This document shows positions 13,536 through 33,978 of a stretch of DNA of 37,686 bases, in pieces. The stretch is taken from the IMG/VR virus record IMGVR_UViG_3300033149_005302, positions 1 through 37,686 of that record; one strand, 5' to 3'. The notes beneath the pieces were generated by a model, which was not told the DNA's origin, made no database searches, and was given only the letters and a program-made list of their open reading frames with translations. Made by a program: the position numbers and the translations under genes. This DNA is from a virus. Within the stretch, counting starts at the first letter, position 1, and each line of letters opens with the position of its first letter.

Positions 13536-13649
13536 TTTTGTTCGTGAACCGCGGCTGTTAACTTTTCCTCAGGCTTTCCCTCCGGCTTTTCCATTCGTGC
13601 AGAAAGATTAAGATTGTCTCACAAAACCGCACAAAGGTGCAGAAAAGTA

Positions 13650-18753: not shown

Positions 18754-19214
18754 AGCTCCTCCTCGCGTTCCAGTTCCTTCAGGAACCTCTCACATTCCTT
18801 GCAAAGCGGCAGATCGCCCGGGCCCAAATCGGTGGCTGTAGTCGGCCCTATGCCACAGACGCTGAACCGGGTAACGCCCTGGCCCGTGTCCATTCCTTCT
18901 GCTACGTGCAGCCGCCTTGTGTCTCCTACGAGACACGATTTCAAGCCAAAACGACTCATCACTCTGCTTGCCATTTTCTTTTGTTTCACAGCTCTTCTTT
19001 TAGCTTTAGAGCAGTGCTTGCAAAGCTTGAAGCTGTCCGGCAATTTGTCTATAGCTACCGTTGGCCCGATACCACAGATGGTGTACTTGTCCATCTCTTC
19101 CGGGCCAAATCTGTAGGCCAAATGCAAGTCCTTACTGTTTCTTACCCGGCAGAACTGTAAGAGTCGTAACCCCTGGTCATCCGAGTGATACCGCAGAAGC
19201 CTATGGTCTATCAT
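18750..19214 (-). CDS. Double zinc-ribbon protein (array copies D and C fused)
   Basis: 154 aa from ATG 19214 (GGAGGGGG upstream). Two tandem copies of one domain are visible. Residues ~1-78 contain HLAYRFGPEEMDKYTICGIG, PTVAIDKL and LCKHC. Residues ~81-154 contain RLHVAEGMDTG, FSVCGIGPTTATDL and LCKECERFL. Shared hallmarks are CGIGPTxAxDL and LCKxC, with CxxG...CxxC as likely metal ligands. The second half is closest to copy B downstream. It lies in a chain of overlapping small genes (ATGA before, GTGA after). The function is not known. Confidence 0.6.
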   Translation of the reverse strand: MIDHRLLRYHSDDQGLRLLQFCRVRNSKDLHLAYRFGPEEMDKYTICGIGPTVAIDKLPDSFKLCKHCSKAKRRAVKQKKMASRVMSRFGLKSCLVGDTRRLHVAEGMDTGQGVTRFSVCGIGPTTATDLGPGDLPLCKECERFLKELEREEEL

Positions 19215-21947: not shown

Positions 21948-22591
21948 ACGCTTATGCGCTTCTCAACCCCGTAAATTTCCCGTGCTAGCGTAAACACTCG
22001 CCAGCCAGCCACCTGTTCGGTTACCCCTATAAGCCGATCCTCGAAGTTCTCGTCCTCCGTCCGGCCTATACGCAAGATTCGCGCGGCTTCTGGCTTGTAT
22101 CCGTTCTCCTCCAGCAGGCGCATGTACGCTGCCAACTGGTAGACCATCTCGCGGTAGATCGCCTTGCCTGTCTTGAAGTCAATCAGCGTGAGTGAGCCGT
22201 CCAGCATAGCCAGGCAGTCTATGGTCCCGCCATACTCCATCTGCTCGTGCACCAGTGGCTGTTCCACCAGCACAGGCTCCATACTGTGCCCCTTCTCCCA
22301 CTCGAAGTAGCTCAGCACGCAGTTCTCCGCCAGCGAGACGTCCTCCGGTGCATACTCGCCCAGCTCCGGCTCGATGCCTTTCAGGTGACACATGATCAGG
22401 TAGTGGGCGATCGTGCCCACCTGGGCGGCTGCGCCCCTCACCTTGCGGTAGTCCTCGCCCTGGCAGCCGCACTCCCAGGCCCAGTGGATCAGTGCCGGCT
22501 TAGCCAGGACCCCGAGCACGGTCGTCACGCTCGGCACGCGTGTCCCGTTGGCCAGCCTGTAGACTGTGTGTACCTGTGTTCTCGTAATCAT
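21944..22591 (-). CDS. PD-(D/E)XK exonuclease, RecB/Cas4-like
   Basis: 215 aa. It begins with VPSVTTVLGVLAKPALIHW, then GTIAH (His 63). The nuclease core follows: a Glu near 110, GGTIDCLAML (Asp 125), LTLIDFKTGK (Asp 138-Phe-Lys 140) and YQLAAYM (Gln 152, Tyr 156). This is the RecB/lambda-exo-like order H...D...DxK...QxxxY. Such enzymes resect DNA ends. With the nearby putative annealing protein it would form a phage recombination pair. Its stop overlaps the methylase start as ATGA. Confidence 0.85.
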   Translation of the reverse strand: MITRTQVHTVYRLANGTRVPSVTTVLGVLAKPALIHWAWECGCQGEDYRKVRGAAAQVGTIAHYLIMCHLKGIEPELGEYAPEDVSLAENCVLSYFEWEKGHSMEPVLVEQPLVHEQMEYGGTIDCLAMLDGSLTLIDFKTGKAIYREMVYQLAAYMRLLEENGYKPEAARILRIGRTEDENFEDRLIGVTEQVAGWRVFTLAREIYGVEKRISV

Positions 22592-22618
22592 TTCGTTACC
22601 CCCTCTCTATTTCCCCAT

Positions 22619-22661
22619 CCTGGGCCAGGGGCCTGGGGGGTTGCGACCGTCCTGGCCCAGG
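22619..22661. other. GC-rich hairpin between VRR-NUC and exonuclease genes
   Basis: CCTGGGCCAGG at 22619-22629 and its exact complement CCTGGCCCAGG at 22651-22661 form an 11-bp stem with a 21-nt loop in the 148-bp gap (22592-22739). No T-run follows, so it is more likely an mRNA-processing or attenuating structure within the early operon than a full terminator. Nothing else is seen in the gap. Confidence 0.5.
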
Positions 22662-22739
22662 GCTGGGTTGGCTACGGAGCCAGCGGGGTCGAGGTAAAGG
22701 AGGGACCCGAAACCCCCGACCCGTGGCTGCCGGCTCCCC

Positions 22740-23024
22740 TTAGTCGTGCTCATAACTTCGTATCCTCTCGTAAAGCTCGTCGGCATCCCTGATGACCCAG
22801 TAGTCGATGCCGTCCTGTCGGCACTGCTCCTGAAACCTGACTTGTGCGTCCCTCATCTTTCCCGTAGCGCTCTTCAGCTCTAGATAGATCACCCGCCCCT
22901 TGTAGTGCATCACGCGGTCGGGCAGCCCAGGGAAGGCGCCCAGGCCGGCGAGCACGTGGTAGTTGAAGATGCCGAGAGCGCTCAGCAGGTCCTTCACCTG
23001 CCGCTTGATGTGGTTCTCGGTCAA
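22740..23024 (-). CDS. VRR-NUC domain nuclease
   Basis: 94 aa, the length of stand-alone phage VRR-NUC proteins. It has a helical start (IKRQVKDLLSALGI), GLGAFPGLPDRVM with catalytic Asp 36, VIYLELKSATGKM with E49-L-K51, and QVRFQEQCRQDG before WVIRD. The family is a PD-(D/E)XK nuclease acting on branched DNA, including Holliday junctions. The first codon is TTG 23024 with no clear ribosome site, so the start is uncertain. It lies between the exonuclease and annealing-protein genes, fitting a recombination/repair set. Confidence 0.9.
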   Translation of the reverse strand: MTENHIKRQVKDLLSALGIFNYHVLAGLGAFPGLPDRVMHYKGRVIYLELKSATGKMRDAQVRFQEQCRQDGIDYWVIRDADELYERIRSYEHD

Positions 23025-23040
23025 AGAGCAGCGCCGCGTA

Positions 23041-24003
23041 CTACGCAGCCGCCGCCTGCCATTCCTTGAACGTAGTGTAATTTCTGACCTCCTCGCAGCC
23101 GTTCAGCTTCGCATAGTCGAACGCCTGCTGTAGTGCCAGCGTCAGCGACCGCCCGGTAGCTTGGGCCGGCTTCTCTACACCCAGCGCCTTAACTGCGTAG
23201 ACACGGTGCTTCAGCCCCATCCTCGCAGCGCCTTCATAGTATTTTCGCCAGGCGATACCGTTGTTGAGGGCTTCCTGAGGCTTCTCCTGAGGTTGGGTCT
23301 GCGGGGTATCCTCTGGATCGTCCTCGCTTTCACTGCCATCCCCTTCGTCCTCGGTCGGTGCTGCCTTCGGCCTACTGGGTATTGCGTCCTCCACCGGTGC
23401 AACGCCGTTGTCCTGCATGTCCTCGATGTCCTGCGTGAAGACATCCGACAGGCGGCCACTAGATAGGGCGGCGTCGATCAAAGCCCTCTTCTTAGCCATC
23501 TTCAGGATCGTGTTGACCAAGCTATAGATATCATCGTTCTGTACCCGATACTGCTTCGCTAGCCCCTTACGCGTGCGCACGGTGCGGGTTACCAGGCTGT
23601 CCTTGTCGATGTCGTTGCCCAGCTCAGAGCTGAACACCCACCGCCAGCGGTACTTGGACTCCATGCTGTTGCACTCGCCCAAGCCCTCAGAGATGACTAC
23701 CCCGGACGATATGGAGACAAGCCGGCACTTCACCAGGTACCGGAAAAACCCGTGCTCCCAATCCTCTTTGCAGTGCACAATTTCGTATGTGTCGGATAGA
23801 CCCAGGAGCTTGGCTATCTTTTCCGCCCCGGGCTTAAGCAGCGTGGGCTTGTTGCTTGTCCCCGGTATCACACCGAAATCGTGTCCGGGTCGCATGTTCT
23901 GGCGGACGATTTGCTGGAATCTATTAATGGCCTGGATGTCCGCTATAAACTTCTGTTCGTCTGGCAACGCAATGGCAGCGTTACTTGCTCCGTTCGTCGT
24001 CAT
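23041..24003 (-). CDS. Putative single-strand annealing / recombination protein
   Basis: 320 aa from ATG 24003 with AAGGAGGAG upstream. The N-terminal ~200 residues (INRFQQIVRQNMRPGHDFGV, LLKPGAEKIAKLLGLSDTYE, CNSMESKYRWRWVF, ILKMAKKRALIDAAL) belong to a family common in phages and integrative elements and often found beside exonucleases. A long Asp/Glu/Pro/Gln-rich linker (~205-245) precedes a helical C-terminal domain with IAWRKYYEGAARMG. Location next to a RecB-like exonuclease and VRR-NUC suggests a RecT/Erf-like annealing or ssDNA-binding role. That assignment is by context and remembered motifs, not proven. Confidence 0.6.
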   Translation of the reverse strand: MTTNGASNAAIALPDEQKFIADIQAINRFQQIVRQNMRPGHDFGVIPGTSNKPTLLKPGAEKIAKLLGLSDTYEIVHCKEDWEHGFFRYLVKCRLVSISSGVVISEGLGECNSMESKYRWRWVFSSELGNDIDKDSLVTRTVRTRKGLAKQYRVQNDDIYSLVNTILKMAKKRALIDAALSSGRLSDVFTQDIEDMQDNGVAPVEDAIPSRPKAAPTEDEGDGSESEDDPEDTPQTQPQEKPQEALNNGIAWRKYYEGAARMGLKHRVYAVKALGVEKPAQATGRSLTLALQQAFDYAKLNGCEEVRNYTTFKEWQAAAA

Positions 24004-24028
24004 CGTCTCCTCCTTTTCTTTGCAATGT

Positions 24029-24095
24029 TTACGAAGGGTTTTGTGTAAAATTGGCCCCTTCAGGCCCTAGACCCCACGGCCTGCCGCGGAACCTG
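24029..24095. repeat. Direct repeat copy 1 (3' end of zinc-ribbon gene)
   Basis: About 65 bp starting TTACGAAGGGTTTTGTGTAA is closely similar to 28331-28395 in the same orientation. Both encode, on the minus strand, the C-terminal FTQNPS-stop. The two copies flank the regulator-attP-integrase-TnpB-like region. Confidence 0.7.
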
Positions 24096-24244
24096 GAAGT
24101 GCACGTCATTGCGCGCTGAAGCGGTATCACGCGATGGCAGGCCGTGCACCAGACCACGTCCTTCATCTCGCTGGAGCCCCGGGCTAGGAGCTGGCTGGCG
24201 AACACGAGCCAGCCCCCGCACTCACAGTAACCTACCCGTCTCAT
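24029..24244 (-). CDS. Zinc-ribbon protein, 71 aa
   Basis: ATG 24244 overlaps the preceding stop (ATGA), with AGGAGG 5 nt upstream. The ribbon is CECGGWLVF followed by MKDVVWCTACHRVIP. A C-terminal extension (GRPWGLGPEGANFTQNPS) follows, and its DNA is duplicated at 28331-28395. It is probably a small nucleic-acid or RNA-polymerase-binding early protein. It is paralogous to the peptide at 28432-28581, which shares the MKxxxxCxxCHKV pattern. Confidence 0.6.
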   Translation of the reverse strand: MRRVGYCECGGWLVFASQLLARGSSEMKDVVWCTACHRVIPLQRAMTCTSRFRGRPWGLGPEGANFTQNPS

Positions 24245-24381
24245 AGCCTCCTCCTGTCTTCCCTGTGCTCCACGTCCAGCCCCGTGAGCTCACGCCAGCA
24301 CCACTCACACAGCCCCGAGTCGTCCGCCACCCTGCGCTGACACACCTTGCAGAGTGGCTTCAACACCTTGACTTCTGCCAT
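24241..24381 (-). CDS. Zinc-ribbon micro-protein, 46 aa
   Basis: ATG 24381 has AAAGGAGGG 4 nt upstream, and its TGA overlaps the next start (ATGA). The 46-aa product has two Cys pairs, LCKVC and LCEWC, spaced as in a single zinc ribbon, then a charged helical tail ending DRRRL. It overlaps the end of the less certain ORF 24305-24532. It forms a coupled pair with the 71-aa zinc-ribbon gene. Confidence 0.6.
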   Translation of the reverse strand: MAEVKVLKPLCKVCQRRVADDSGLCEWCWRELTGLDVEHREDRRRL

Positions 24382-24532
24382 TTTGCCCTCCTTTCTTATT
24401 CCCGCGACCCCCTCTCCGACCGCACTCTACGTAGAATTGCCTATCGTACCGCTTGAACGGGTTGCTTCGCCGCGCCCCCTTGCGCCGGTTGATGTCCCAC
24501 TGCACGAGCCTCTCGCACACTATGCCGAGCAC
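24305..24532 (-). CDS. Possible small basic protein (uncertain)
   Basis: An open frame with strong third-position G/C in its first ~45 codons (CERLVQWDINRRKGARRSNP, then YDRQFYVECGRRGG), lying between the RHH gene and the zinc-ribbon gene. Candidate starts are GTG 24532 or GTG 24520. The AGGAGG at ~24546-24551 is 13 nt or more away, so the start is weak. The last 77 bp overlap the 46-aa gene in another frame. It may be real and truncated, or a relic. Confidence 0.35.
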   Translation of the reverse strand: MLGIVCERLVQWDINRRKGARRSNPFKRYDRQFYVECGRRGGRGNKKGGQNGRSQGVEATLQGVSAQGGGRLGAV

Positions 24533-24554
24533 GGGACAAACGATCCCTCCTACG

Positions 24555-24743
24555 CTATTCCTGGCTTGCACGGTACGCCCTGTACATCTTTACCGCCCTG
24601 CGCACGATCGCAGAGGCGGATACCCCTTCTGCCCTGGCCAGCGCCTCAATCACGCTCCGGTCCTCCCGCGACAGCGAGATTGTGAACGTGCTCCTACCAC
24701 CCTTGATAACTTTCTCACGCCGTCTTGTAGTGCTCTCATCCAT
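24555..24743 (-). CDS. Ribbon-helix-helix (CopG/Arc-type) regulator
   Basis: 62 aa from ATG 24743. A basic N-terminus (TTRRREKVIKGG) precedes the RHH strand RSTFTISLSREDRSVIEAL, the turn ARAEGVSASAIVRRAV and a terminal helix. This is the classic dimeric RHH DNA-binding fold (Arc/CopG/MetJ type). It is the first gene of the leftward early operon, transcribed from a strong promoter whose spacer contains a TAACAC/GTGTTA palindrome. It may autoregulate there and act on the divergent repressor promoter. Confidence 0.85.
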   Translation of the reverse strand: MDESTTRRREKVIKGGRSTFTISLSREDRSVIEALARAEGVSASAIVRRAVKMYRAYRASQE

Positions 24744-24752
24744 GGTGGCCGT

Positions 24753-24781
24753 ATTTTAACACTTCCGTGTTACCATGTCAA
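24753..24781 (-). promoter_or_regulatory. Leftward early promoter
   Basis: On the minus strand TTGACA (24781-24776) is separated by exactly 17 bp from TAAAAT (24758-24753), just upstream of the RHH gene start at 24743. This is a near-consensus sigma70-type promoter. Its spacer is filled by the palindrome TAACACTTCCGTGTTA, a likely operator. Confidence 0.75.
24757..24772. promoter_or_regulatory. Operator palindrome in the leftward promoter
   Basis: TAACACTTCCGTGTTA, a 6-bp inverted repeat with a 4-bp centre, occupies the promoter spacer. A related site, TAACGCAAATGTGTTA, lies in the same position of the divergent rightward promoter (24865-24880), and a half-site TAACAC is at 24788-24793. Shared sites in both promoters suggest one repressor controls both. 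Confidence 0.6.
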
Positions 24782-24855
24782 GACTTTTAACACACGGCCC
24801 ACACATTAGCGTCAAATGAAACCTTTGTAACCGCCTGACCACACCAGCTTTTGTG

Positions 24856-24884
24856 TTGACAAAGTAACGCAAATGTGTTAAGTA
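24856..24884 (+). promoter_or_regulatory. Rightward (repressor/lysogeny) promoter with operator
   Basis: TTGACA (24856-24861), a 17-bp spacer and TAAGTA (24879-24884) precede the XRE-type gene. The -10 is weak, as expected of a regulated promoter. The operator-like palindrome TAACGCAAATGTGTTA (24865-24880) overlaps the spacer and the -10 start. With the leftward promoter it forms a face-away divergent switch. Confidence 0.55.
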
Positions 24885-24914
24885 TGGGAGATACCCCCTG
24901 CTAGATTCGGAGGC

Positions 24915-25235
24915 TTGGTGGCGAGGAGGAGGCTAAGATTAGGAGAGCACAGCTTAAGAGGCAAGAAGATTCAGGCAGAGCTTGACAGGCTTCAGTTGTC
25001 ACAGACAGAATTGGCTTCCAGGATAGGGATGCCCCAGCAAACATTGAACCGAATAATGACGGGCCAGATACACGACCCTGGCGTAGAGACGATGGCGCGG
25101 ATAGCCCGTGAGCTGGGCCAGCCGCTCGACTACTTCCAGGACGATATCACCATCGGCCTTAGCATGGCGAGCGAGCTGAGAGCCTGGCTGCAAATGGGCA
25201 TCCGTATCATGCGCAAGTATAATGCCTGGCCATAA
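24915..25235 (+). CDS. Cro/CI-type HTH repressor
   Basis: 106 aa. The first codon is TTG 24915 or GTG 24918, and GGAGG lies immediately upstream of both. After a basic start comes a standard XRE HTH: KIQAELDRLQLSQTELASRI, GMPQQTLNRIMTGQ, then ETMARIARELGQPLDYFQD. A short C-terminal helical segment follows; there is no peptidase domain, so a LexA-type cleavage switch is unlikely. It is divergent from the RHH gene, the usual place of a phage lysogeny regulator. It leads an apparent operon through the membrane proteins to int and the TnpB-like gene. Confidence 0.85.
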   Translation: MVARRRLRLGEHSLRGKKIQAELDRLQLSQTELASRIGMPQQTLNRIMTGQIHDPGVETMARIARELGQPLDYFQDDITIGLSMASELRAWLQMGIRIMRKYNAWP

Positions 25236-25250
25236 GGAGGTGGAATATTC

Positions 25251-25439
25251 ATGACGTACATCAGTTTAATACTTTCGATCGGTCTCGCGTATGCCTTGGG
25301 TATAGCAGCAGATATCATTGTGCGCCACAGGAAAGTGCTATGGCGGGACCGCAGACGTCGCCTGATATTGCCCATGGTATCGTTCACAGCGGGAATCGTG
25401 ACATTGGTGGTAGTCGCTACTTATGCCGCCGATGGCTAG
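25251..25439 (+). CDS. Two-TM small membrane protein 1
   Basis: 62 aa from ATG 25251 with AAGGAGGTGG upstream. Helix 1 is SLILSIGLAYALGIAADIIV, then a strongly basic loop (RHRKVLWRDRRRRL), then helix 2 MVSFTAGIVTLVVVATY and a short tail. It is roughly two-thirds identical to the next gene, so the pair is a tandem duplication. The position between repressor and attP, where lysogenic conversion genes usually sit, suggests superinfection exclusion or host-membrane modification; this is inference. Confidence 0.6.
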   Translation: MTYISLILSIGLAYALGIAADIIVRHRKVLWRDRRRRLILPMVSFTAGIVTLVVVATYAADG

Positions 25440-25470
25440 CGTGGCACAAGCTGCTTCAGAAGGAGGTGGA

Positions 25471-25665
25471 ATGTTTATCAGTACGCTGGCTTCGCTCGGT
25501 CTTGGGTATGGTTTGGGTATAGTAGGATATATCATTGTCCGCCACGGAAAAACGCTATGGCAGGACCGCAGCCGTCGCCGTCGCTTGATCTTGCCCGCGG
25601 TAGCCTTCACAGCTGGAATCGTGATATTGTCTGTGATAGTCGCTACTTATCCAGCCGATGGCTAA
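25471..25665 (+). CDS. Two-TM small membrane protein 2
   Basis: 64 aa from ATG 25471 with AGGAGGTGG upstream, the same leader sequence as its paralogue at 25251. Helix 1 is STLASLGLGYGLGIVGYIIV, the loop is basic (RHGKTLWQDRSRRRRL), and helix 2 is AVAFTAGIVILSVIVATY. The LILPxVxFTAGIV block and the ATYxADG end are shared with copy 1. The paralogues differ mainly in helix 1, as expected if they diverged in what they recognise. Confidence 0.6.
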   Translation: MFISTLASLGLGYGLGIVGYIIVRHGKTLWQDRSRRRRLILPAVAFTAGIVILSVIVATYPADG

Positions 25666-25700
25666 TCTAGCACAATGGCTGTGGTTCTAGACCTGGTAAC

Positions 25701-25722
25701 ATAATCTTTCCGTTTAGATTAT
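25701..25722. promoter_or_regulatory. Perfect 7-bp inverted repeat upstream of membrane protein 3
   Basis: ATAATCT and AGATTAT flank an 8-nt centre in the 83-bp gap between membrane-protein genes 2 and 3. It could be an operator, a weak hairpin, or an integrase accessory site given its position 240 bp from attP. No T-run or promoter was seen with it. Confidence 0.4.
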
Positions 25723-25748
25723 CAGAGTGGCCATAAGGGGGGGGTAGA

Positions 25749-25928
25749 ATGAAGTACGTTCTCGGTCTATTACCTACGATGCTCCTGGGTCTGGCTGCAG
25801 GTAGCTTCCTGCTACTCTACACAAAAGAGGCAGCGCACTACTCCAACCGGCGCCGGATAGCGATCCTGGCCCTGTGTGTCGTCCTGTTTCTGATGGCTTC
25901 TGCGCTGTTCGCCATTCCCAACGAATAG
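25749..25928 (+). CDS. Two-TM small membrane protein 3
   Basis: 59 aa from ATG 25749, with AAGGGGGGGG upstream. Helix 1 is VLGLLPTMLLGLAAGSFLLL, a short basic loop has YSNRRR, and helix 2 is IAILALCVVLFLMASALFAI. It has the same topology as the two preceding proteins but little direct identity, so it is a distant relative or an independent recruit. Together the three make a small-membrane-protein cassette next to attP. Confidence 0.55.
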   Translation: MKYVLGLLPTMLLGLAAGSFLLLYTKEAAHYSNRRRIAILALCVVLFLMASALFAIPNE

Positions 25929-25939
25929 CTGGTCTGCCC

Positions 25940-25996
25940 TTTTAGACAACAAGACTGGCAGTCAGAAGGTCGGGGGTTCGAGTCCCCCCAGCTCCA
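25940..25996. other. Probable attP: tRNA 3'-end sequence next to the integrase gene
   Basis: GGGGGTTCGAGTCCCCC (25972-25988) is a perfect tRNA T-arm, followed by CAGCTCC and a discriminator A (25989-25996). The upstream part does not fold as D- and anticodon arms, so it is a tRNA 3' fragment, not a tRNA gene. Three bases later the integrase starts. Temperate phages often carry the 3' end of a host tRNA gene as attP so that integration restores the gene. TTTTAGAC and an inverted copy of GACCTTCTGA lie beside it and recur inside the integrase gene, as integrase-binding sites might. Confidence 0.8.
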
Positions 25997-25998
25997 AA

Positions 25999-26985
25999 AT
26001 GAGCACGAATTTTGAGAAATTTGCCGAAAACAGCGGTCTTAGACCTTCTGATTTTTGGGAGTGGCTGCGTAAACAAATGGTTTTAGACCTTCTGATTCCG
26101 AAATCCTTGGGAGAGGCCGTGGCCCTCTGGGTGACCGAAAAGGGCATCCACCAGTGCTCAAAACGCACCATTGACTTTTACAGATACAACATGCGGCCGT
26201 TCCTTGAGCGATTTGACGCGGAATCAGAGGTTCACGCCATTAGCCCCGACCAGGTCCGGGAGTTCTTCGCCCTGGAGTCGCAGCGGCTGCGGGGCAAGGC
26301 GCACACGCTCCACGCCGAGTACCGCACTGTGCGAGCCTTCTTCTCGTGGGCACAGGCCAACCGGTACGTGCTGGAGAACCCCGTACAGTTGCCAGCTCCG
26401 CAGCTTCCGCAGCGGGTGAAACCCATCATCGAGCCCCAGGACTTCGCCTGCATCCTGCGCCACTGCGACAACACCGTCATCGGTCGCCGTGATCGTGCTA
26501 TCCTCATGCTGTTTTACGACACCGGCATCCGGCTCCAGGAGATGGCCGACCTAAAGCTGGCTGACATCGACATTGCAGAATCGCGCATTACCGTGCACGG
26601 TAAGGGGAACAAATACCGGGTGGTGCCTCTCTCAGAGAACGTCCTGGCTGCCGTGTGGGAGTGGCTCAAGGTGAGACAGTCGATCCTGCCGGCCCTGTGG
26701 CTGGGTGAGGAAGGCCAGCCGCTGACGGCCTCCGGCATACAGCAGGCCGTGAAACGTGTAACGCGGAGGGCGTTAGGCAAACCGCTCGGCACCCACATCT
26801 TCAGGCACTCGTTCTCCTGCCTGTTCCTGGAAGCCGGAGGCGATTCGTTCGATCTACAGACCCTCCTGGGCCACTCCAGCCTGAGGACTACGCAGGGCTA
26901 CTCCGAGGCAACGAAGGTTCGGAGGGCGCTCAAGGCCCACGAGCGGTATTCGCCGGTGGGGCGCCTAGATTGGGGCAAGCGATGA
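25999..26985 (+). CDS. int: Tyrosine recombinase / integrase
   Basis: 328 aa. The N-terminal core-binding domain (~38-125) includes SLGEAVALWVTEKG and HTLHAEYRTVRAFFSWAQAN. The catalytic domain carries the full set: Arg 178 (DTGIRLQE), Lys 202 region (VHGKGNKYR), His 266-x-x-Arg 269 (THIFRHSF), His 292 (LLGHSS) and Tyr 301 (TTQGYSE). It would integrate the phage at a tRNA gene via the adjacent attP. The first ~35 residues are encoded by two DNA repeats that may be binding sites, so the start could be cis-acting DNA as well as coding. Its stop overlaps the TnpB-like start as ATGA. Confidence 0.95.
   Translation: MSTNFEKFAENSGLRPSDFWEWLRKQMVLDLLIPKSLGEAVALWVTEKGIHQCSKRTIDFYRYNMRPFLERFDAESEVHAISPDQVREFFALESQRLRGKAHTLHAEYRTVRAFFSWAQANRYVLENPVQLPAPQLPQRVKPIIEPQDFACILRHCDNTVIGRRDRAILMLFYDTGIRLQEMADLKLADIDIAESRITVHGKGNKYRVVPLSENVLAAVWEWLKVRQSILPALWLGEEGQPLTASGIQQAVKRVTRRALGKPLGTHIFRHSFSCLFLEAGGDSFDLQTLLGHSSLRTTQGYSEATKVRRALKAHERYSPVGRLDWGKR
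26035..26097. repeat. Two direct repeats in the 5' part of int
   Basis: GGTYTTAGACCTTCTGATT occurs at 26035-26053 and 26079-26097, 44 bp apart. The inverted TCAGAAGGTC is at 25962-25971 and TTTTAGAC at 25940-25947. This set centred on attP looks like arm-type integrase sites or, alternatively, an int-autoregulation element. Confidence 0.6.
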
Positions 26986-28124
26986 TCAGGAAAGTGTTCC
27001 GTGCCGAGATCGTAAAGCCAGTTAACATGGACTGGCAGGGGTTTAACACGGTCCTCAACAAGGCAATGTTCGCGTCCGCTCGCCTGGGCAACGAGGTCAT
27101 GGCCACGTCGTACCTCTTGGCCAAGAAACAGGTGGTCAGGGAGGGCAGTTTCTGCCGGATGATCACTAGCTGCCGAGAAGATGACAGCACCAGTTTCAAC
27201 GTGCGGTGCGCCGTCTGCCGCCGGGCCCGCCTCCGCTTTCAGGCGATGGCCCGGGAGCTGCTGCGTGGGGATGTGCGCCTGCCCACGTTCCGCAACAACA
27301 GTCTCTACATGCGGGACCGGGCGGTGAAGCTGTGGCCAAACGCCGACAATGGGGACTGGGAGGCCCGGCTGGCCATCCTGCCGGGGCACCAGCTTCAGCC
27401 GGTGGTTCGGTTGAGGATGAGGACCATGCGCCGCAGGTCGCCGGGCTACTACCAGATACTGGAGCGCATCGCCAGCGGTGAGTACAAGCTGGGGACAGTG
27501 GAGCTGGTGAGGAACCGGCAACGGGGAAAGCTGTACCTGCTGATGTCATACAGCTTCGAACCTGCTGGTCGAACTGTGGACTCTGACAGGGTCATGGCAG
27601 TCTACCCCGATGTCACCACGCTCTGTTCGCTCGATGGCCGCGAGCACGAGTTCCCGCCCCGGCGGGTGCTAGAGGTCAAGGACCAGATAGAGCGCCGGAG
27701 GGAGACGATCCGGCGTGAGATCAGTGGCCGGAGCCGACGGCGGGGGCACGGGCGAAAGGCGAAGTACGCCTCCCTGACGAAGCTGGAGGACCGATGGGCG
27801 AACTTCTGGCGGAACTGGTCTCACGCCCGGGCTCGCGAGGTGGTGGACTATGCCCAGCGCCAGGGAGTCAGTACAATTTACGTTGCAGACACGCCCGAAC
27901 CGGGCAAGGACTGGCCAAGCTACGACCTAGTGCAGAAGATTCAAAACAAGTGCGACGAGGCCAAGCTAAGGGTGGTGGTCGTCAAGGACAGCAAGCTCAG
28001 CCAAGCCTGTTCTCAGTGTGGGAGTCTGGAGGGTGAGGCTGAGGATGGCACGTTTCGTTGCGGGTCGTGCGGCTACGAAGATAGCGTGGCCCGCAACACG
28101 GTCAGGGTGCTCATTAACAAGTGA
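26982..28124 (+). CDS. TnpB/Cas12f-like RNA-guided protein, predicted nuclease-dead
   Basis: 380 aa from ATG 26982, overlapping the int stop (ATGA), so it is co-translated with the integrase. The N-terminus (KVFRAEIVKPVNMDWQGF) is typical of Cas12f/V-U and TnpB-like proteins. Cys 58, 64, 76 and 79 could form an N-terminal zinc finger. The Arg-rich bridge region (240-262) and the C-terminal finger CSQCG...CGSCG (343, 346, 360, 363) are kept. The three RuvC acids are not: the motif-I Asp aligns with Tyr 208 (VMAVYPDV), the motif-II Glu with Ala 302 (IYVADT), and the motif-III Asp with Ala 370 (SVARNT). There is no TnpA transposase. This is the profile of nuclease-dead TnpB-like repressors (TldR) or dead Cas12-type proteins: RNA-guided DNA binding without cutting. 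Function is inferred. Confidence 0.82.
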   Translation: MIRKVFRAEIVKPVNMDWQGFNTVLNKAMFASARLGNEVMATSYLLAKKQVVREGSFCRMITSCREDDSTSFNVRCAVCRRARLRFQAMARELLRGDVRLPTFRNNSLYMRDRAVKLWPNADNGDWEARLAILPGHQLQPVVRLRMRTMRRRSPGYYQILERIASGEYKLGTVELVRNRQRGKLYLLMSYSFEPAGRTVDSDRVMAVYPDVTTLCSLDGREHEFPPRRVLEVKDQIERRRETIRREISGRSRRRGHGRKAKYASLTKLEDRWANFWRNWSHARAREVVDYAQRQGVSTIYVADTPEPGKDWPSYDLVQKIQNKCDEAKLRVVVVKDSKLSQACSQCGSLEGEAEDGTFRCGSCGYEDSVARNTVRVLINK

Positions 28125-28330
28125 ATATGTTTTTGGGCCGACTTCACCGGCCCAAGAGCGAGAAGTGCCAGCGCACCGAGCCCGCGGTGTTGGATCTCTC
28201 TCGAAACGGGCTGACGACGGGGGACGGTTCCCGGCTGGTAACACTCGCAAGCCACTAACTGAGATGGTGGCAGTGAAGGTGAGGCAATTCTATCTCGTAC
28301 AGGTAGCTTCAGCGCTGTAACGTGTCAGTC
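28125..28330 (+). ncRNA. Candidate guide-RNA (omega-RNA-like) scaffold downstream of the TnpB-like gene
   Basis: This ~200-nt part of the 307-bp gap (28125-28431) contains no convincing gene but strong structure. TTGGGCCG/CGGCCCAA (28133-28155) is an 8-bp stem. CACCG/CGGTG around 28174-28189 is extended by CCA/TGG. GCCAC/GTGGC is around 28250-28270. The GAAACGGGCTGACGACG and GACGGTTCCCGGC stretch recalls TnpB right-end RNAs. In TnpB and TldR systems the guide RNA is read from exactly this place. No promoter of its own is evident. The remainder to 28431 is the decayed duplicate of a zinc-ribbon gene 3' end. Confidence 0.4.
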
Positions 28331-28395
28331 TTACGAAGGATTTTGTGTAAAAACCGACCCTTCAAGTCCTAGACCACACGGCCCGCCCCGAACCC
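28331..28395. repeat. Direct repeat copy 2 (decayed zinc-ribbon gene 3' end)
   Basis: Starts TTACGAAGGATTTTGTGTAA, one mismatch in its first 20 bases from 24029 onward, and stays similar for about 65 bp. On the minus strand it still reads GLGLEGSVFTQNPS-stop but is out of frame with the zinc-ribbon gene 28432-28581. It begins just after the candidate guide-RNA scaffold. Confidence 0.7.
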
Positions 28396-28431
28396 GCCTG
28401 AAATCGCCTCTCACAGCCTGATAAGGGCATT

Positions 28432-28581
28432 CTACGTGCTGGCAGGTCTGACCTTGTGGCACTTCAGGCACCGCCAGTAGGCTTTCATGCCGATGCCTGT
28501 AGGGCGCATCTCTTTGGTCATAGGCAGGTGGCACTGCGGGCAGGGAGGCCCGGCGTTAGAGTCTTCGACGTGGTCACTCAT
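28432..28581 (-). CDS. Zinc-ribbon peptide, 49 aa (paralogue of 24029-24244)
   Basis: ATG 28581 with AGAGGA about 9 nt upstream, starting 8 bp inside the preceding reading frame. Cys pairs PPCPQCH and YWRCLKCHKV make one zinc ribbon. MKAYWRCLKCHKVRP aligns with MKDVVWCTACHRVIP of the 71-aa protein at 24029. Here a TAG and a frame change separate the ribbon from the C-terminal FTQNPS part, which survives untranslated downstream. It is probably still functional as a short ribbon. Confidence 0.55.
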   Translation of the reverse strand: MSDHVEDSNAGPPCPQCHLPMTKEMRPTGIGMKAYWRCLKCHKVRPAST

Positions 28582-28726
28582 GCTTTACCATCCTCTGTTT
28601 CTTCAATTCCAGCAGGTATTGCAGGCGTTCTTCGCGGAGGGCATCCACCTGCTCCTGCAAGTGGGCCAGCTCGTTGATAAGCGCCTGTTCATCGCGCGCC
28701 CACTTGATGACTACGGGGTCCCACCT
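28574..28726 (-). other. In-frame coding-like extension after the UGA of the XhlA-like gene
   Basis: Directly after the TGA at 28727-28729 the same frame runs 50 more codons: RWDPVVIKWARDEQALINEL, then an amphipathic Leu/Glu/Arg coiled coil (EQVDALREERLQYLLELKKQ) and stop at 28574. There is no ATG/GTG/TTG before the TTG near 28646, so the first half cannot be made independently. The end overlaps the zinc-ribbon start by 8 bp, as expected for a translated gene. It may be a readthrough extension, or a separate gene that lost its start. Confidence 0.45.
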
Positions 28727-28957
28727 TCACGAGCCGACTCCCAGCACGGCGCCACTGATAATCCCTGAGCCTACCAGCACGCCGATAAGTATATAGACGG
28801 TGAGTCTCAGACGGTTGTGCCCGTTTTCCAGCTTCTCCAGGCGCTGCGTCATGCGCCGGACATCGCCACACAGGCCGTTGTCGCCGTCTATGCCTACCAG
28901 TACGGCCTTGACCTCCTGGACTGTGCGGTGTGTCTCGTATAGTAGCTGGTCGTTCAT
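28727..28957 (-). CDS. XhlA-like holin-associated membrane protein
   Basis: 76 aa from ATG 28957 with AGGATGAGG upstream. An N-terminal coiled coil (HRTVQEVKAVLVGIDGDNGL, then VRRMTQRLEKLENGHNRLRL) is followed by one hydrophobic helix (VYILIGVLVGSGIISGAVLG) at the C-terminus. This coil-plus-tail-anchor layout is that of haemolysin XhlA and similar lysis accessory proteins. It lies at the distal end of the late run; the holin-like gene at 10251 would be its partner. The frame continues past its UGA (see 28574-28726). Confidence 0.6.
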   Translation of the reverse strand: MNDQLLYETHRTVQEVKAVLVGIDGDNGLCGDVRRMTQRLEKLENGHNRLRLTVYILIGVLVGSGIISGAVLGVGS

Positions 28958-28967
28958 TGCCTCATCC

Positions 28968-28997
28968 TTGACAAGGTGGTGTTGGTTGTGATATGTA
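28968..28997 (+). promoter_or_regulatory. Possible promoter of the lone rightward ORF
   Basis: TTGACA (28968-28973), an 18-bp spacer and TATGTA (28992-28997) lie 22 bp upstream of GTG 29020. The -35 is perfect and the -10 matches 4 of 6. It faces away from the XhlA-like gene and into the 3' end of the tail gene. Confidence 0.5.
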
Positions 28998-29019
28998 ACC
29001 CTGACGAGGGGGTGAATCG

Positions 29020-29139
29020 GTGAAACACATACCTCCGCCCACGAAAGATACCCATAGCCGTGTACGCTTTATCGACTTCGTTCTTGCCCTCATTCTTGCT
29101 TTCGCCATCAGCAGGCTTATCGTCAAGGTTCTTTCCTAA
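29020..29139 (+). CDS. Lone 39-aa single-TM peptide on the opposite strand
   Basis: GTG 29020 has GAGGGGG 7 nt upstream. The peptide has a basic N-terminus (KHIPPPTKDTHSRVRF) and one hydrophobic helix (DFVLALILAFAISRLIV), ending KVLS. It is the only rightward ORF in the late region, with its own promoter, and ends 4 bp inside the tail gene 3' end. Expression in the prophage is possible because it does not depend on the late transcript. It may be a small membrane toxin, exclusion peptide or spurious ORF. Confidence 0.4.
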   Translation: MKHIPPPTKDTHSRVRFIDFVLALILAFAISRLIVKVLS

Positions 29140-31889
29140 ATTAGCCTCGTCTTATATAGTGTAACGACTTTCGTTTCCCCTGATTCATCGCCAGCGTGGA
29201 TATTGAGGTATGGCGTACTACCACCCGTTACTGGCCCCGTGAAGACTACGAAATCCAGCCACATCTCAGAGGTATGGGCTCTATTAGCAAACTGCTTCAC
29301 GATCATATTGCCATTGCTGTCCACAAAGTAACCGATCAGCCAGGGATTAATGAACGTCCCCGTGGTACATTCCATTTTTACTGCAAGAATCCAATATTGC
29401 CCCTTGCTGAAATTCGTATTTCCGCTATATGTGTGGGTAGAACTGGACAATTGAGAAGAGCTGTGTTGTGTGTCTGTGACCTGTACCCCGTCACTGTTGA
29501 ACTCAATTCGCCCACCGCCACACGTAGCCTTCCCAGTGCTGGAACTAAGCTCAAACTGCACCTCGTCGGAGGCGTTCTTGCCTCTTATACCGTCGCTGTC
29601 TATCTCGGTCCGGGTGTTACCACTTTCCGCTGAGCTGAATGTCATTTGTCCTGTGCTTGGGCTGACCTGGAACCGGATGTTGCCGTCGGCGTCCACACCC
29701 TTGATGCCGTCGTCGGAGTTGATCTCCACCCTGGCACCGCCCGGCGTGCCCTGTACGATCACCTGGGAACCCTTCAGCAACACCAGATCGTCCACGCACC
29801 AGTTACCAGCCGGACTGCCAGTGCCTACCGTGTAAATGGTCAACTCAACCCACTGCGTGTTGGCTGGCGCCTTCTTGGAGCCGCTCGCCTTCGCCCACGC
29901 TGTTGACGGGCTACGGTCGAGAAACACGTCGTACGATATCTCGCTCTTATTTTCGTCGAGCCACGTGAAGCGTGCTTTCAGGTTCGAGTTTGCCGCCACG
30001 GAAGCGGAGCTCCAGACCTCGGCATAAAAGATGTCGCCCTCTTTCGCCTTGAAATAGTGCGAGCGCAGGCATTGGTCTAGCAAAGTGATGTCGCCCTTGG
30101 CACTGTAGCTACCTGAGTGAGCTTTGTCCCCGGTGACTACCCAGTTGGCTACCGATCTCCATCCCGACAGGTCGCCGGTCTCAAAGTCGGGGTTCGTTAG
30201 GAGCTGCCAGCCCATGCCCACCAGCGAGTTAAGCTCGATGGTATCAGTCTGAATCTTGTCCCCGGTAATAGAGTTTGCCTTCAGGTGGTCAGTGTCCACC
30301 TCGCCGGCTTTGATGTGCTTACCCAATATCAGGTCACTGTACAGAATATTGGCTGACAGCACCGGCTCCTTGCCGTGTGCCGGCAATATCAGCGCCTTGC
30401 TACTGTCAGCGTTGCCCTTCACTGCCACGGCCAGCAGCCCCCTGTCCCGTCCCAGGGTGTCCCCGAAGTCCGTAGACCACTGGACGGTGCTATTCCCCAC
30501 GATGAAATAGGCGAAGTGCGTGGCGCTCAGGTCGTCCTTAGACCCAGCGTCCAGCGTAGTCGGTGTGCCCTCGGCAAAGTGCACCGTGCCGCCCGACCAC
30601 GTAGCATTCGTCACACCGGTAGAACTCCAGTCCATGTCCACCACGTACGGGCGCATAGACTCCAGCAACAGCTCGGGGCCGATGCTCTGTTGCTTCAGCA
30701 CGCGTCTGGCGCTCACACCGCCACCAAGCGCCATCTCGTCTACGATCTGCCGTATGTCGTACGCCGTCTGTCTCTGTAGACCGCCCAAGCCGATGTCCAG
30801 CCTGTAGACTCCCTTGAGCGGCTGGTACCGGGCGTACAGCCCACCTACCCGTCCGGTACCCCCTGTGTTGCCCCTGTTGTCCGTAATGGTAACCTTGTCG
30901 TACAGCTCCTGGAGGCAGTTCATGATCGGTACGCTGTAGTAGCCGGCGTCCGCCTCCAGCTCGGCGCGCTCTACCTGCGCCTGCGCCAGCCACTCGCAGT
31001 CGGCGTCCGATCCGGTCACGCCCCAGGCGTCGTACAGCGTCAGCACGCCCATACTGGAGTCCCAGTCGGCGTGGGCGTACTCACCGCTGTTGCCGGAGAC
31101 ATTTATCACCTTGACCTTCATCGGCTTGAAGTACAGCGACCGCGTATAGCCGTCCTTAAACACGTGCCCGGTGGTGACGGGTATCTCGTAGGTGTAGTCC
31201 ACGCTATCGCCCGCCTGGCAGTACTTCGCGTGGAGGCAGTCCGTGCGGGGTAACAGTACACAGCGAAAGACCTGCAGCAGGCGCCTGATGGCCTCCATGC
31301 CGTTCTCACCAAACTGGACGGTGAAGGCCGGCTTCCAGGAATCTATCTTCCCGTCCAGCGTGCCTATGTTGGCCCCCAGGTCAAGCCCCGCCTGCTCGGC
31401 AATGTAGTCGATGATATCAAGCCCCGTCTTGTTGTCCAGGCCGGCGTCTAGCCCGGGCTGGTTAAAGCACAAGTCGTCCTCTGCTATCCAGCGCCGCAGG
31501 ATAGAGAAGGCGCCCTCACAGTGTAGGACGTACATATCCTGGCCCGGGCGAGAGATGAAGTCCTGAGCGTAGCACTTCAGGTATGGCGGGTGGCTCACCT
31601 CGTTGCCCGTACTGCATACGGCGCCCCAGCCGATAGCCACCCACTTGCCGTTCAGGTTGTAGGCGTCAAAGGCTCCGTCGCTGTTGTCCAGCACTATACT
31701 GGCCTGTGACCCGTACGGCTCCTGGTCGTACCTGATGTCCAGGATGCGCTGTTTCGAGCCGACGTTATCGATGCGCGTCCAGCTACCGCCAGCGTCGCTC
31801 GGTCTGCCGCTGGTGTAGTACTCAACCGTGACGTACGGTGTGAGATGCCCGCTCTTTTGCGCGGCTTCCAGTGTAGCGTTCGTCCTCAT
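29136..31889 (-). CDS. Large tail/receptor-binding protein, 917 aa
   Basis: Start at ATG 31889, overlapping the adaptor gene stop (ATGA); a GTG at 31904 is less likely. The N-terminal ~400 residues resemble tail-hub or tail-tip proteins (VTVEYYTSGRPS, RILDIRYDQEPYGSQASIVL, LKCYAQDFISRPGQDMYVLH). Around 430-560 are short collagen-like or shaft strands (DHLKANSITGDKIQTDTIEL). Residues ~560-700 form a CBM-type jelly roll (LLTNPDFETGDLSGW to NWCVDDLVLL). The C-terminus repeats IEFNSDG/IEINSDDG/TEIDSDG strands, a triple-stranded fibre pattern, ending in a beta domain. This is most likely the host-contact tail fibre or tip. Confidence 0.7.
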   Translation of the reverse strand: MRTNATLEAAQKSGHLTPYVTVEYYTSGRPSDAGGSWTRIDNVGSKQRILDIRYDQEPYGSQASIVLDNSDGAFDAYNLNGKWVAIGWGAVCSTGNEVSHPPYLKCYAQDFISRPGQDMYVLHCEGAFSILRRWIAEDDLCFNQPGLDAGLDNKTGLDIIDYIAEQAGLDLGANIGTLDGKIDSWKPAFTVQFGENGMEAIRRLLQVFRCVLLPRTDCLHAKYCQAGDSVDYTYEIPVTTGHVFKDGYTRSLYFKPMKVKVINVSGNSGEYAHADWDSSMGVLTLYDAWGVTGSDADCEWLAQAQVERAELEADAGYYSVPIMNCLQELYDKVTITDNRGNTGGTGRVGGLYARYQPLKGVYRLDIGLGGLQRQTAYDIRQIVDEMALGGGVSARRVLKQQSIGPELLLESMRPYVVDMDWSSTGVTNATWSGGTVHFAEGTPTTLDAGSKDDLSATHFAYFIVGNSTVQWSTDFGDTLGRDRGLLAVAVKGNADSSKALILPAHGKEPVLSANILYSDLILGKHIKAGEVDTDHLKANSITGDKIQTDTIELNSLVGMGWQLLTNPDFETGDLSGWRSVANWVVTGDKAHSGSYSAKGDITLLDQCLRSHYFKAKEGDIFYAEVWSSASVAANSNLKARFTWLDENKSEISYDVFLDRSPSTAWAKASGSKKAPANTQWVELTIYTVGTGSPAGNWCVDDLVLLKGSQVIVQGTPGGARVEINSDDGIKGVDADGNIRFQVSPSTGQMTFSSAESGNTRTEIDSDGIRGKNASDEVQFELSSSTGKATCGGGRIEFNSDGVQVTDTQHSSSQLSSSTHTYSGNTNFSKGQYWILAVKMECTTGTFINPWLIGYFVDSNGNMIVKQFANRAHTSEMWLDFVVFTGPVTGGSTPYLNIHAGDESGETKVVTLYKTRLI

Positions 31890-32503
31890 GCCACCTGCGG
31901 CCACCTCTCAATAATCTGCGGCTTCTGTATCTGCATCAGCCGTCGCAGGACGACGGTCAGTAGCTGGCTACCCCACTCCTGGTAGTCCCGCGTCACTCCC
32001 TGGCCGCCGACCGTAACCTGGTTGACGTAGTCTATGCTCTTGCTGATAGCTGCCCGGCCAGCGCACAGGTCGACCAGCAGGCCCTCAAGGTAAGGGTCGA
32101 GCGTGTTCGTCGTCGTGCCGTCTACCACGTGCGGCTGCCTGCAATATAGCCTGACGTCTTCGCCGTCGCTGGGGGCGAAGGAGATGTCCATTATGAGCTT
32201 GCCCTGGCGCACTTCGAAGTTACGGTACCGCGGCGGGTCTTTATCCGTGGGAAACTCCACGTACTCGAAGCTCCTGGCATCGTCCGTCCCATAGAGCAGG
32301 TCGGTCAGGCTGCTAATGTCGACCTGCTTAGAGTTGGCCGTTGTCGTCACCGTAGCCAGGACGACCCGCGGCTTGTAGTACGATACCTCGAGCAGGCAGG
32401 CGTCCATGACCTGGCCGATCTCCGCCGTCGACCAGATGGCCGTACCGCTGTCCTGGAGACGCTGCAGTACCCTGCTTACGAGCTGGTCTTCCGTGTAGGC
32501 CAT
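31886..32503 (-). CDS. Putative head-tail adaptor/connector protein
   Basis: 205 aa from ATG 32503 with GAGGAGG upstream. The N-terminus is a helical domain (YTEDQLVSRVLQRLQDSG, then EIGQVMDACLLEVSYYKPRV). A beta segment follows (VDISSLTDLLYGTDDARSFE, YRNFEVRQGKLIMDISF), then a C-terminal helical bundle with LEGLLVDLCAGRAAISK and RDYQEWGSQLLTVVLRRLMQ. This alpha-beta-alpha layout and the position between capsid and tail genes fit the adaptor proteins that extend the portal. Assigned by pattern and place only. Confidence 0.5.
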   Translation of the reverse strand: MAYTEDQLVSRVLQRLQDSGTAIWSTAEIGQVMDACLLEVSYYKPRVVLATVTTTANSKQVDISSLTDLLYGTDDARSFEYVEFPTDKDPPRYRNFEVRQGKLIMDISFAPSDGEDVRLYCRQPHVVDGTTTNTLDPYLEGLLVDLCAGRAAISKSIDYVNQVTVGGQGVTRDYQEWGSQLLTVVLRRLMQIQKPQIIERWPQVA

Positions 32504-32505
32504 CG

Positions 32506-32649
32506 CTACCTCCTCTTCCGCCTGGGCTTGTGCGTGCCCTTGATCGTCCCTGCGCTCTGAGAAGCGTAGAACACCCGGTCACCCTTCTCTTTCCCGTAGT
32601 GTTTACGCATCTCCCGCCGAATCTTCTTCCCCTTCTCAGTTAGCGGCAT
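32506..32649 (-). CDS. Small basic phage protein, 47 aa
   Basis: ATG 32649 has AGGAGG upstream and overlaps the radical-SAM gene end by 14 bp. The product, MPLTEKGKKIRREMRKHYGK followed by KGDRVFYASQSAGTIKG and a Lys/Arg tail, is a widespread small phage protein. It is usually found in morphogenesis regions and of unknown function; the strong positive charge suggests nucleic-acid contact. Short but well supported by ribosome site and family resemblance. Confidence 0.7.
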   Translation of the reverse strand: MPLTEKGKKIRREMRKHYGKEKGDRVFYASQSAGTIKGTHKPRRKRR

Positions 32650-33832
32650 GATAACCTCCTGTATACGTAAACCCTCTGAACTGGGCCAGGTCGTCGAACG
32701 TCAGGCTGTCCGTCCGCACCAGCAATGCCCCGTAGCCGTACTGGCTGTAATCGACGTGTCGCTTGTGCCCCTTGGCCGTGACTATCTTGTCCAGCTCCGT
32801 GCCGGGAAACGGGCAGGCATAGGCCCACCCATAGCGTGTCGGCTTTATCTCGTGGATCAGCTTGTCGGTCTCCCGTAGCGTCTGCCACGTCTCGCCCGGG
32901 CAGCCGACCACGAAGCTGCACTGGGCGTCTATGCCCACCTCGTGGGTCAGCGCAATGGCCGCCCGGCTTTCCTCGACGGTCGTGCCCTTCTTCATGTTGT
33001 CCAGCATGGCTTGACTGCCACTCTCAACCCCGTAGAAGATGTTCCATACCCCCGCACGCTTAGCAAGTTCAAGGTACGGGCGCGACGTGAGCCGACGGTT
33101 TACCCTGCCGGTCACCTTGAACGCCATCCGCTTTTGCAGGTTGCGCCGCAGGATACCCTCGAAGATGGCCGTCGCCCAGTCGTGGTTCAGGTTGAACGTG
33201 TCGTCCTGGAAGAAGACCTCGTTGATGCCGTGGTGCCTGTGGAGCGTCTCGATTTCCTCCAGCACCAGCTCCGGGTTGCGGTAGCGCACCTTCTTGCCCC
33301 AAAACAGGGGCGTATTGCAGAAGATGCACTGACCGGGGCAGCCGCGGGACGCCATGATGCTCATGCTCGGTGGCGCTATCATGGGGGGTGTACCGCAAAA
33401 CCGCCTCAGGTCCACCAGGTTGTAGTCCGGCACAGGCACGTCGTCGATCGTGTGTACCTCGGCTGGATGCCCCAACAACTCCAGCCAGGCATTTTCTCCC
33501 TCACCCACCACGACGTTATCTCCCTCGCCGTCCCAGGCCATAGCGTGAGGCCCACCTATCACCAGCCGGATGTGGCTGCTTACGGATCGAACGGCCTTCG
33601 CTACGGCCCGCGCTGACCGGACCTGGAACGTGTTTAGGGTCACCCCCACAATGTCAGGCTTGAACGACCTCACTTCATCCTCGACGCTCACCCTGTCGAT
33701 GTCCAGGTGCAGGATGCGCACCTTGTGCCCGCGTTGCTTCGCCAGCGTGCCGAGGATGAGCAGCGCCACCGACGGCACCTCGGCAAACGTCTGCTCCCAG
33801 TTCATCCTCGGCTGTACCAGCAGTACGTTCAT
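32636..33832 (-). CDS. B12-binding / radical SAM enzyme
   Basis: 398 aa from ATG 33832, overlapping the preceding peptide stop (ATGA). Residues 1-~125 form a cobalamin-binding-type Rossmann domain (MNVLLVQPRMNW, PSVALLILGTLAKQRGHKV, VIGGPHAMAW). A radical SAM domain follows with C165-x3-C169-x2-C172 (ASRGCPGQCIFCN), EVFFQDDTFN, and FYGVESGSQAMLDNMKKGT, all typical of B12-dependent radical SAM proteins of the methyltransferase/BchE type. It sits among structural genes next to a glycosyltransferase-methyltransferase. It may modify a glycan, lipid or protein on the virion or host surface. The substrate is unknown. Confidence 0.92.
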   Translation of the reverse strand: MNVLLVQPRMNWEQTFAEVPSVALLILGTLAKQRGHKVRILHLDIDRVSVEDEVRSFKPDIVGVTLNTFQVRSARAVAKAVRSVSSHIRLVIGGPHAMAWDGEGDNVVVGEGENAWLELLGHPAEVHTIDDVPVPDYNLVDLRRFCGTPPMIAPPSMSIMASRGCPGQCIFCNTPLFWGKKVRYRNPELVLEEIETLHRHHGINEVFFQDDTFNLNHDWATAIFEGILRRNLQKRMAFKVTGRVNRRLTSRPYLELAKRAGVWNIFYGVESGSQAMLDNMKKGTTVEESRAAIALTHEVGIDAQCSFVVGCPGETWQTLRETDKLIHEIKPTRYGWAYACPFPGTELDKIVTAKGHKRHVDYSQYGYGALLVRTDSLTFDDLAQFRGFTYTGGYHAAN

Positions 33833-33972
33833 CCTTCGCGCCACACCTTGTTGGCCCACTCGCAGCCGCAGAGCTTCTGGCAGAAGCGGTACACCTTCAC
33901 CACTGCGCCCTCTATGCGCTCCCAGGTCACACACTGGCCGTTTATCTGTCTACCACACCAGTCACACTTCAT
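33829..33972 (-). CDS. Zinc-ribbon peptide, 47 aa
   Basis: ATG 33972 follows the glycosyltransferase stop by a few bases, and its TGA overlaps the radical-SAM start (ATGA), so it is translated in the chain. Cys pattern MKCDWCGRQ ... FCQKLCGC gives four or five ligands around an intervening beta segment (VTWERIEGAVVKVYRF), a likely zinc ribbon. No clear ribosome site; probably reinitiation. The function is unknown. Confidence 0.55.
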   Translation of the reverse strand: MKCDWCGRQINGQCVTWERIEGAVVKVYRFCQKLCGCEWANKVWREG

Positions 33973-33978
33973 ACCAGT

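Follow-up and report, generated by a model that had tools for sequence, protein, structure and literature searches.

A Cas12f relative with a replaced catalytic triad and a putative guide RNA in the integration module of a temperate phage

The window analyzed here is the whole 37,686-nucleotide stretch of the virus record IMGVR_UViG_3300033149_005302, and its subject is dcas12f, a gene encoding a 380-amino-acid (aa) protein, together with the RNA scaffold that lies behind it. The dcas12f start overlaps the stop codon of the integrase gene int by ATGA, and the scaffold begins 8 bases beyond the dcas12f stop codon (table 1). The record ends share a 114-base direct repeat (1-114 = 37573-37686), and the simplest reading of this is a complete circular phage genome with a length of 37,572 bases. 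Phage genes recognized in it include those for a terminase, a DnaB-like helicase and a P22-type coat protein, as well as O-like replication genes.

Table 1. Features of the lysogeny module and its surroundings, in window coordinates (bp, base pairs)
Feature	Coordinates	Strand	Basis or remark
60-bp block, copy B	24029..24088		directly upstream of the minus-strand gene starting at 24003
Repressor-type regulator	24915-25235		
Most likely attP core, 3' part of a tRNA-Ala(GGC) gene, 44 bases	25953..25996	+	sequence; directly before int
int, XerC-like tyrosine recombinase	25999..26985	+	directly upstream of dcas12f, same orientation
Two 32-base direct repeats, 78% alike, at the int start	26022..26097	+	repeat search
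dcas12f, Cas12f relative predicted to be nuclease-dead, 380 aa	26982..28124	+	catalytic D/E/D replaced by Y208, A302, A370; Cys4 zinc finger kept
Guide-RNA scaffold, tracrRNA type, 5' hairpin and main stem	28133..28251	+	covariance model from relatives only
Scaffold 3' part	28252..28321	+	contains a short self-complementary segment (from about 28297, ending CTGTAAC); based on scaffolds and repeats of relatives
Putative guide	28322..28341	+	start set from the repeat-like end, about +/-3 bases; may be only 9 bases
60-bp block, copy A	28331..28390		50/60 identical to copy B; overlaps the distal half of the putative guide

By sequence, predicted fold and phylogeny, the 380-aa protein is a relative of Cas12f (type V-F/U3) and is closer to Cas12f than to TnpB. 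Its best solved relative was AsCas12f1 (phmmer, E 1.3e-41), the identity to AsCas12f chains being 24-27%. The Cas12f and Cas12u3 profiles of PADLOC covered residues 2-368, and the Pfam model Cas12f1-like_TNB matched above its cut-off (E 1e-8). In NCBIfam, guided_TnpB was named first, below its cut-off (62.8 of 100 bits); the same model was also scored, above its cut-off, by Cas12f relatives that bear arrays of clustered regularly interspaced short palindromic repeats (CRISPR). Cas12f works as a dimer; the AlphaFold2 model, built as a monomer with 25 alignment rows, reached a predicted local distance difference test (pLDDT) of 81 and a predicted template modeling score of 0.66. Foldseek placed AsCas12f at the top rank (E 4.6e-30), and VIA-align superposed 363 residues on AsCas12f with Z 29.3 and a root-mean-square deviation of 3.9, whereas the best TnpB row reached Z 18.4 and the best Cas12m row Z 15.4. 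In a tree of 60 hand-chosen rows, with neither a TldR nor a Cas12m sequence among them, the protein clustered with 42 Cas12f-type rows (support 100/98), apart from 17 TnpB-type rows. Its terminal branch was long (2.21), so that its placement inside the Cas12f group is unsure. The N-terminal half of the protein is shortened, and an Arg-rich stretch was observed at roughly residues 236-262.

In this protein the RuvC catalytic residues are replaced. In the phmmer alignment, Tyr208, Ala302 and Ala370 stand at the D, E and D positions of AsCas12f1 that we take to be catalytic. For a broader comparison, 97 of 98 loci gave a matching open reading frame (ORF), and removal of identical proteins and of those shorter than 330 aa left 80 distinct relatives. 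Across these, the three columns were D (78) or N (2), E (79) or R (1), and D (79) or N (1), with the complete D-E-D conserved in 76 and a difference at one position in the other four; all three residues were replaced only in the window protein. A 6-row MAFFT alignment placed a 5-residue gap rather than Tyr208 at the first Asp column, the Asp being absent either way. Among positions kept in at least 80% of the alignment rows, the window protein retained 8 of 22 in RuvC-I/II and 1 of 7 in RuvC-III, lower than every one of the 80 relatives, and 7 of 7 in the zinc finger, where all four Cys residues (343, 346, 360 and 363) are present. As far as the alignment tells, the loss in this protein is thus focused on RuvC, and since the triad is replaced and conserved RuvC positions are lost with the zinc finger kept, DNA cleavage by the protein appears unlikely. 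The relatives with a single catalytic substitution, namely L005 (N), L119 (R), L134 (N) and L139 (N), are possibly further inactive or altered effectors.

A preliminary description of this DNA, made from its letters, had reported the same three replacements, the intact zinc finger and the ATGA overlap with the int stop, all of which were recovered here, and an Arg-rich bridge, where an Arg-rich stretch was observed; two of the checks that it had proposed, structure prediction and family alignment, yielded a Cas12f fold and replaced catalytic positions. It had also stated that no transposase is present; among the window proteins scanned, which represent part of the ORFs, no transposase domain was found except the TnpB-type match of the 380-aa protein itself. 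Its assignment to a TnpB/Cas12f type held for Cas12f on all three lines of comparison; descent from TnpB was not supported, as the tree groups the protein with Cas12f.

The relatives' loci also provided the means to recognize an RNA component. They carry an element resembling trans-activating CRISPR RNA (tracrRNA) with the motif CGAGAAGTG...TAACxCTCG, and array-like repeats were detected at 51 of 97 of these loci by a simple and crude script, near-identical records being counted separately and some rows perhaps not being arrays. A covariance model was built from six relatives' tracrRNAs, which had been aligned without the window and gave a structure with double changes in 17 of 25 pairs. Up to E 10, this model produced a single match in the window, the scaffold on the plus strand (24.7 bits, E 2.8e-5), which falls in the 28.1-28.4 kb region where the preliminary description had guessed that a bound RNA might originate. 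As a control, the model gave 35 matches in 31 of 59 Cas12f-type loci (including the six that built it), all on the strand of the gene, and none in 66 other loci totaling 921,952 bases, a set of 47 terminase-related phage loci plus 19 remote loci of the TnpB/Cas12 type. Array-like repeats do occur in at least one of these 19 (L175), which shows that remote members escape the model, and 28 of the 59 Cas12f-type loci likewise gave no match. In a joint alignment of 22 matches, which was fitted to the model, 94% of cells pair, compared with 67.8% in shuffles and 29-42% with slid partners. The window itself forms 17 of the 18 aligned scaffold pairs as standard pairs, some of them with both sides changed relative to the commonest pair. 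The fold of the 211-base region had a z of -2.07, with 6 of 200 shuffles equally or more stable; the evidence for a guide RNA is homology, not fold stability. No Rfam family matched at gathering thresholds. At two of the relatives' loci, tracrRNA-type matches flank one Cas12f-type gene on both sides (L114, 5470-5580 and 7276-7386; L132, 4804-4921 and 6910-7053).

At the relatives' loci an anti-repeat comes after the scaffold and base-pairs with a separate repeat. In the window, the self-complementary segment beginning at about 28297 occupies about the same distance from the scaffold as this anti-repeat, and its end, CTGTAAC, resembles TGTAAAC and other repeat ends. Repeat searches of the window found no CRISPR array, and the repeat-like segment had no second copy above chance in it. 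Because of the self-complementary segment with its repeat-like end and the lack of a visible array, the segment seems to be a fused anti-repeat:repeat, which would yield a natural single-guide RNA. From 28331 onward the sequence belongs to the 60-bp block that is repeated at 24029-24088, and the guide may comprise as few as about 9 bases; for TldR, 6 nucleotides of guide are enough (PMC13418256).

The window contains no whole tRNA, and near copies of the 44-base tRNA-Ala core were found at three loci in two genomes, with three mismatches each and a tRNA-Ala(ggc) called at two of the three. Since a tRNA-Ala 3' part adjoins int in a window without a whole tRNA, and since two of its three near copies sit at tRNA-Ala(ggc) genes, this core is, by its sequence, most likely attP. 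Allowing up to three mismatches, the core was found in 0 of 10, 2 of 398 (a Bacillota sample, three mismatches each) and 0 of 151 genomes, and allowing up to two, in 0 of 5 and 0 of 13. The 32-base direct repeats may possibly serve as integrase arm sites, and an alternative later start of int near 26078 is possible. The two copies of the 60-bp block bracket the entire lysogeny module, that is, regulator, attP, int, dcas12f and scaffold; this direct repeat is possibly a module boundary, a terminator or a regulatory site. It might also mark sibling phages as targets; its pattern occurred in no viral contig, a result that does not refute this idea.

Together, the lost catalytic residues, the intact zinc finger, the shared orientation with int through the ATGA overlap and the conserved scaffold behind the gene indicate an RNA-guided DNA binder. 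We read it, at somewhat better than even odds, as a Cas12f that is nuclease-dead by nature, has its own single-guide RNA and forms part of a temperate phage's integration module. The domesticated RNA-guided DNA-binding factor of the preliminary description is hence retained as the best reading. Under this reading, int, dcas12f and the guide RNA may be read as one transcript. With attP just before int, integration at tRNA-Ala should set these three directly behind the host tRNA in the same direction, and a transcript so placed would tie expression to the lysogenic state. The ribonucleoprotein could then bind a target that is flanked by TTR and specified by the guide near 28322, blocking transcription there without cutting, as TldR and Cas12m do. 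By this analogy, the prophage would probably make a transcriptional roadblock that acts in trans, and since no fitting site occurs in the phage, the target probably lies elsewhere, either at a promoter of the host (lysogenic conversion) or on a competitor, phage or plasmid. We are more tentative, falling somewhat short of an even chance, about the full account, in which Cas12f rather than TnpB lost cutting and swapped its CRISPR array for a natural single-guide RNA, so that integration at tRNA-Ala switches on a lysogeny-conditional, RNA-guided repressor of a host gene or of rival phages.

Several observations weigh against the RNA-guided DNA binder. The last helix of the covariance model, of seven pairs, was not aligned in the window, whose scaffold score lies near the low end of the family. 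The minimum-energy fold differs from the fused hairpin, and we infer both this hairpin and the guide start. Searches for a guide target in the phage, in viral contigs and among phages and plasmids yielded none: with up to three mismatches the guide matched only itself in the window, its 18-mer had no occurrence in viral contigs, and phages and plasmids gave chance-level matches only (E 3 to 10). In 183 sequences (2.0 Mb), five guide offsets produced 0 or 1 match each, compared with 0 to 3 for 12 control guides. Furthermore, the protein is known from a single genome with no close relative found, and relaxed selection would likewise be compatible with the long branch and the missing near-invariant RuvC residues.

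The searches for relatives covered several collections. For the 380-aa protein, 5 stretches of viral contigs and 37 of genome contigs matched, and none was confirmed as a close relative; for the integrase, 2 matched in viral contigs and none was confirmed. Window DNA from 22000-29500 and 1-25000 had no relative in phages, and the scaffold motif as an exact pattern was absent from viral contigs. Remote relatives were retrieved by alignment-based searches (at least 12 loci, 10 loci, and 80 kept of 101). Of 113 terminase-related loci, 80 were kept, and searching 50 of their records with the 380-aa protein gave one weak match (E 0.004). One relative, an active-looking Cas12f of Alicyclobacillus phage MMB025 (L002, 2020-3753), is annotated as a transposase and has a CRISPR repeat region and a tracr-like motif upstream.

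Among the other explanations, decay is the hardest to dismiss on the present data, since only one genome is known. The gene would then be a drifting relic of a former phage Cas12f whose array was lost, and the long branch, the many near-invariant RuvC residues lost, the absence of a visible array, the shortened N-terminal half and the lack of a close relative all agree with it. An open frame of 380 aa, a zinc finger complete at its conserved positions, scaffold stems kept nearly throughout with some pairs changed on both sides, and a confident structural model speak against it, and we consider decay unlikely. Slightly less likely again is a decoy or anti-CRISPR, in which the dead Cas12f and its tracr-like RNA would capture CRISPR RNAs (crRNAs) belonging to a type V-F system of the host, or tie up the effector partners of that system. 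Nuclease loss combined with a kept scaffold fits such a role, and a precedent is the phage Cas9 with inactive RuvC and its own tracrRNA, which was proposed to sequester crRNAs (PMC11656645); the scaffold 3' end, however, looks self-paired, in our inferred fold, rather than like a free anti-repeat.

The preliminary description had also listed roles directed at the phage itself, in the lysogeny decision or in recombination directionality. Here the ribonucleoprotein would bind phage DNA, at the leader of the 24003 gene or at att, and so control lysogeny or integration. The operon with int and the position of the distal putative guide, inside a block repeated directly upstream of the 24003 gene, are compatible with this, and at one guide offset TTTG precedes the 24.0-kb site with 6 of 20 mismatches. 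These mismatches, however, sit in the seed half. The phage genome contains no TTN-flanked self site with a perfect seed of at least 7 bases at the assumed guide start and no TTR+GTGTCA site, the latter being weak evidence as about two were expected by chance. Self-directed roles thus found no fitting site, and we regard them as improbable. That the protein still cuts or nicks as an unusual nuclease, with Asp210 and Asp303, each within two residues of a lost position, standing in for the triad, is very improbable, for although 4 of 80 relatives also carry single catalytic substitutions, here all three positions are changed and RuvC-III (residues 367-380) is almost stripped of its conserved positions.

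Further features were recorded elsewhere in the window. Upstream of attP, a tandem pair of similar small membrane-protein-like ORFs occupies 25251-25665. AT-rich repeats at 13367-13545 and 17267-17475 both contain palindromic TATCAATATTGATACC-like motifs, including 43-base inverted copies, and by their sequence look like paired operators. A 236-base tandem duplication (18500-18971, 76% alike) and a 114-base repeat with copies 371 apart (10692-11176, 74% alike) were also detected. The stretch 32636-35541, which separates the tail-side gene (31886-32503) from that of the coat protein, encodes a radical SAM/B12-binding protein together with a glycosyltransferase-methyltransferase fusion. Promoter-like sites numbered 3 against 2.1 in shuffles, and terminator-like sites 3 against 4.3.

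If the proposed reading is true, TnpB was not the only source of nuclease-dead RNA-guided regulators in phages, Cas12f being another, and one natural guide RNA can re-emerge from a split tracrRNA/crRNA system. The locus also offers a compact natural dead effector of 380 aa together with its predicted native guide RNA, and a possible connection, open to direct testing, of phage integration with RNA-guided control over the host or rival phages. In the literature searched, where subscription journals were thinly covered and the negative is therefore weak, no description of a phage-encoded, naturally nuclease-dead Cas12f was recognized.

Compared with AsCas12f1 and the type V-F (V-U3) CRISPR-Cas12f systems, the window system has the same protein family, fold, zinc finger and tracrRNA-type scaffold; it differs in the lost triad, in the lack of a visible CRISPR array, in an RNA that is probably single-guide and in the low identity. 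The dCas12f proteins named in the entry titles of PDB 9n9c and 9n9m also exhibit the Cas12f fold (Z 22.5 and 21.9) but are remote in sequence (phmmer E 0.019). They presumably act naturally with a sigma factor, and no sigma-factor gene was found among the window proteins scanned. With TldR the system shares nuclease loss, a guide RNA encoded directly downstream (the guide itself being putative here) and carriage by temperate phages. TldR silence without cutting, and at some of their loci a recombinase gene (hin) lies upstream (PMC13418256). TldR derive from TnpB, however, whereas the window protein groups with Cas12f in a tree that was built without TldR, and no flagellin-like or other partner gene was recognized in the window. 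Cas12m (type V-M) silences by binding without double-stranded DNA cleavage (PMC10442227, PMC11013384), the mode that may by analogy apply to the window protein, and occurs on plasmids and some prophages (PMC11656645); it is larger, uses a CRISPR array and is structurally more distant, its best Z lying well below that of AsCas12f. The phage Cas9 with inactive RuvC is likewise a phage-borne dead effector with an RNA, but it is a Cas9 and not a Cas12f, and its proposed role is crRNA capture (PMC11656645). By these likenesses the system would work most like TldR and Cas12m, with a protein and scaffold of the Cas12f type. It fails two features of Cas12f CRISPR systems (triad and array) and one of TldR (descent from TnpB), and is therefore filed under neither; it is probably best described as a derivative of Cas12f that is nuclease-dead, probably works with a single guide RNA and sits in the integration module of a phage.
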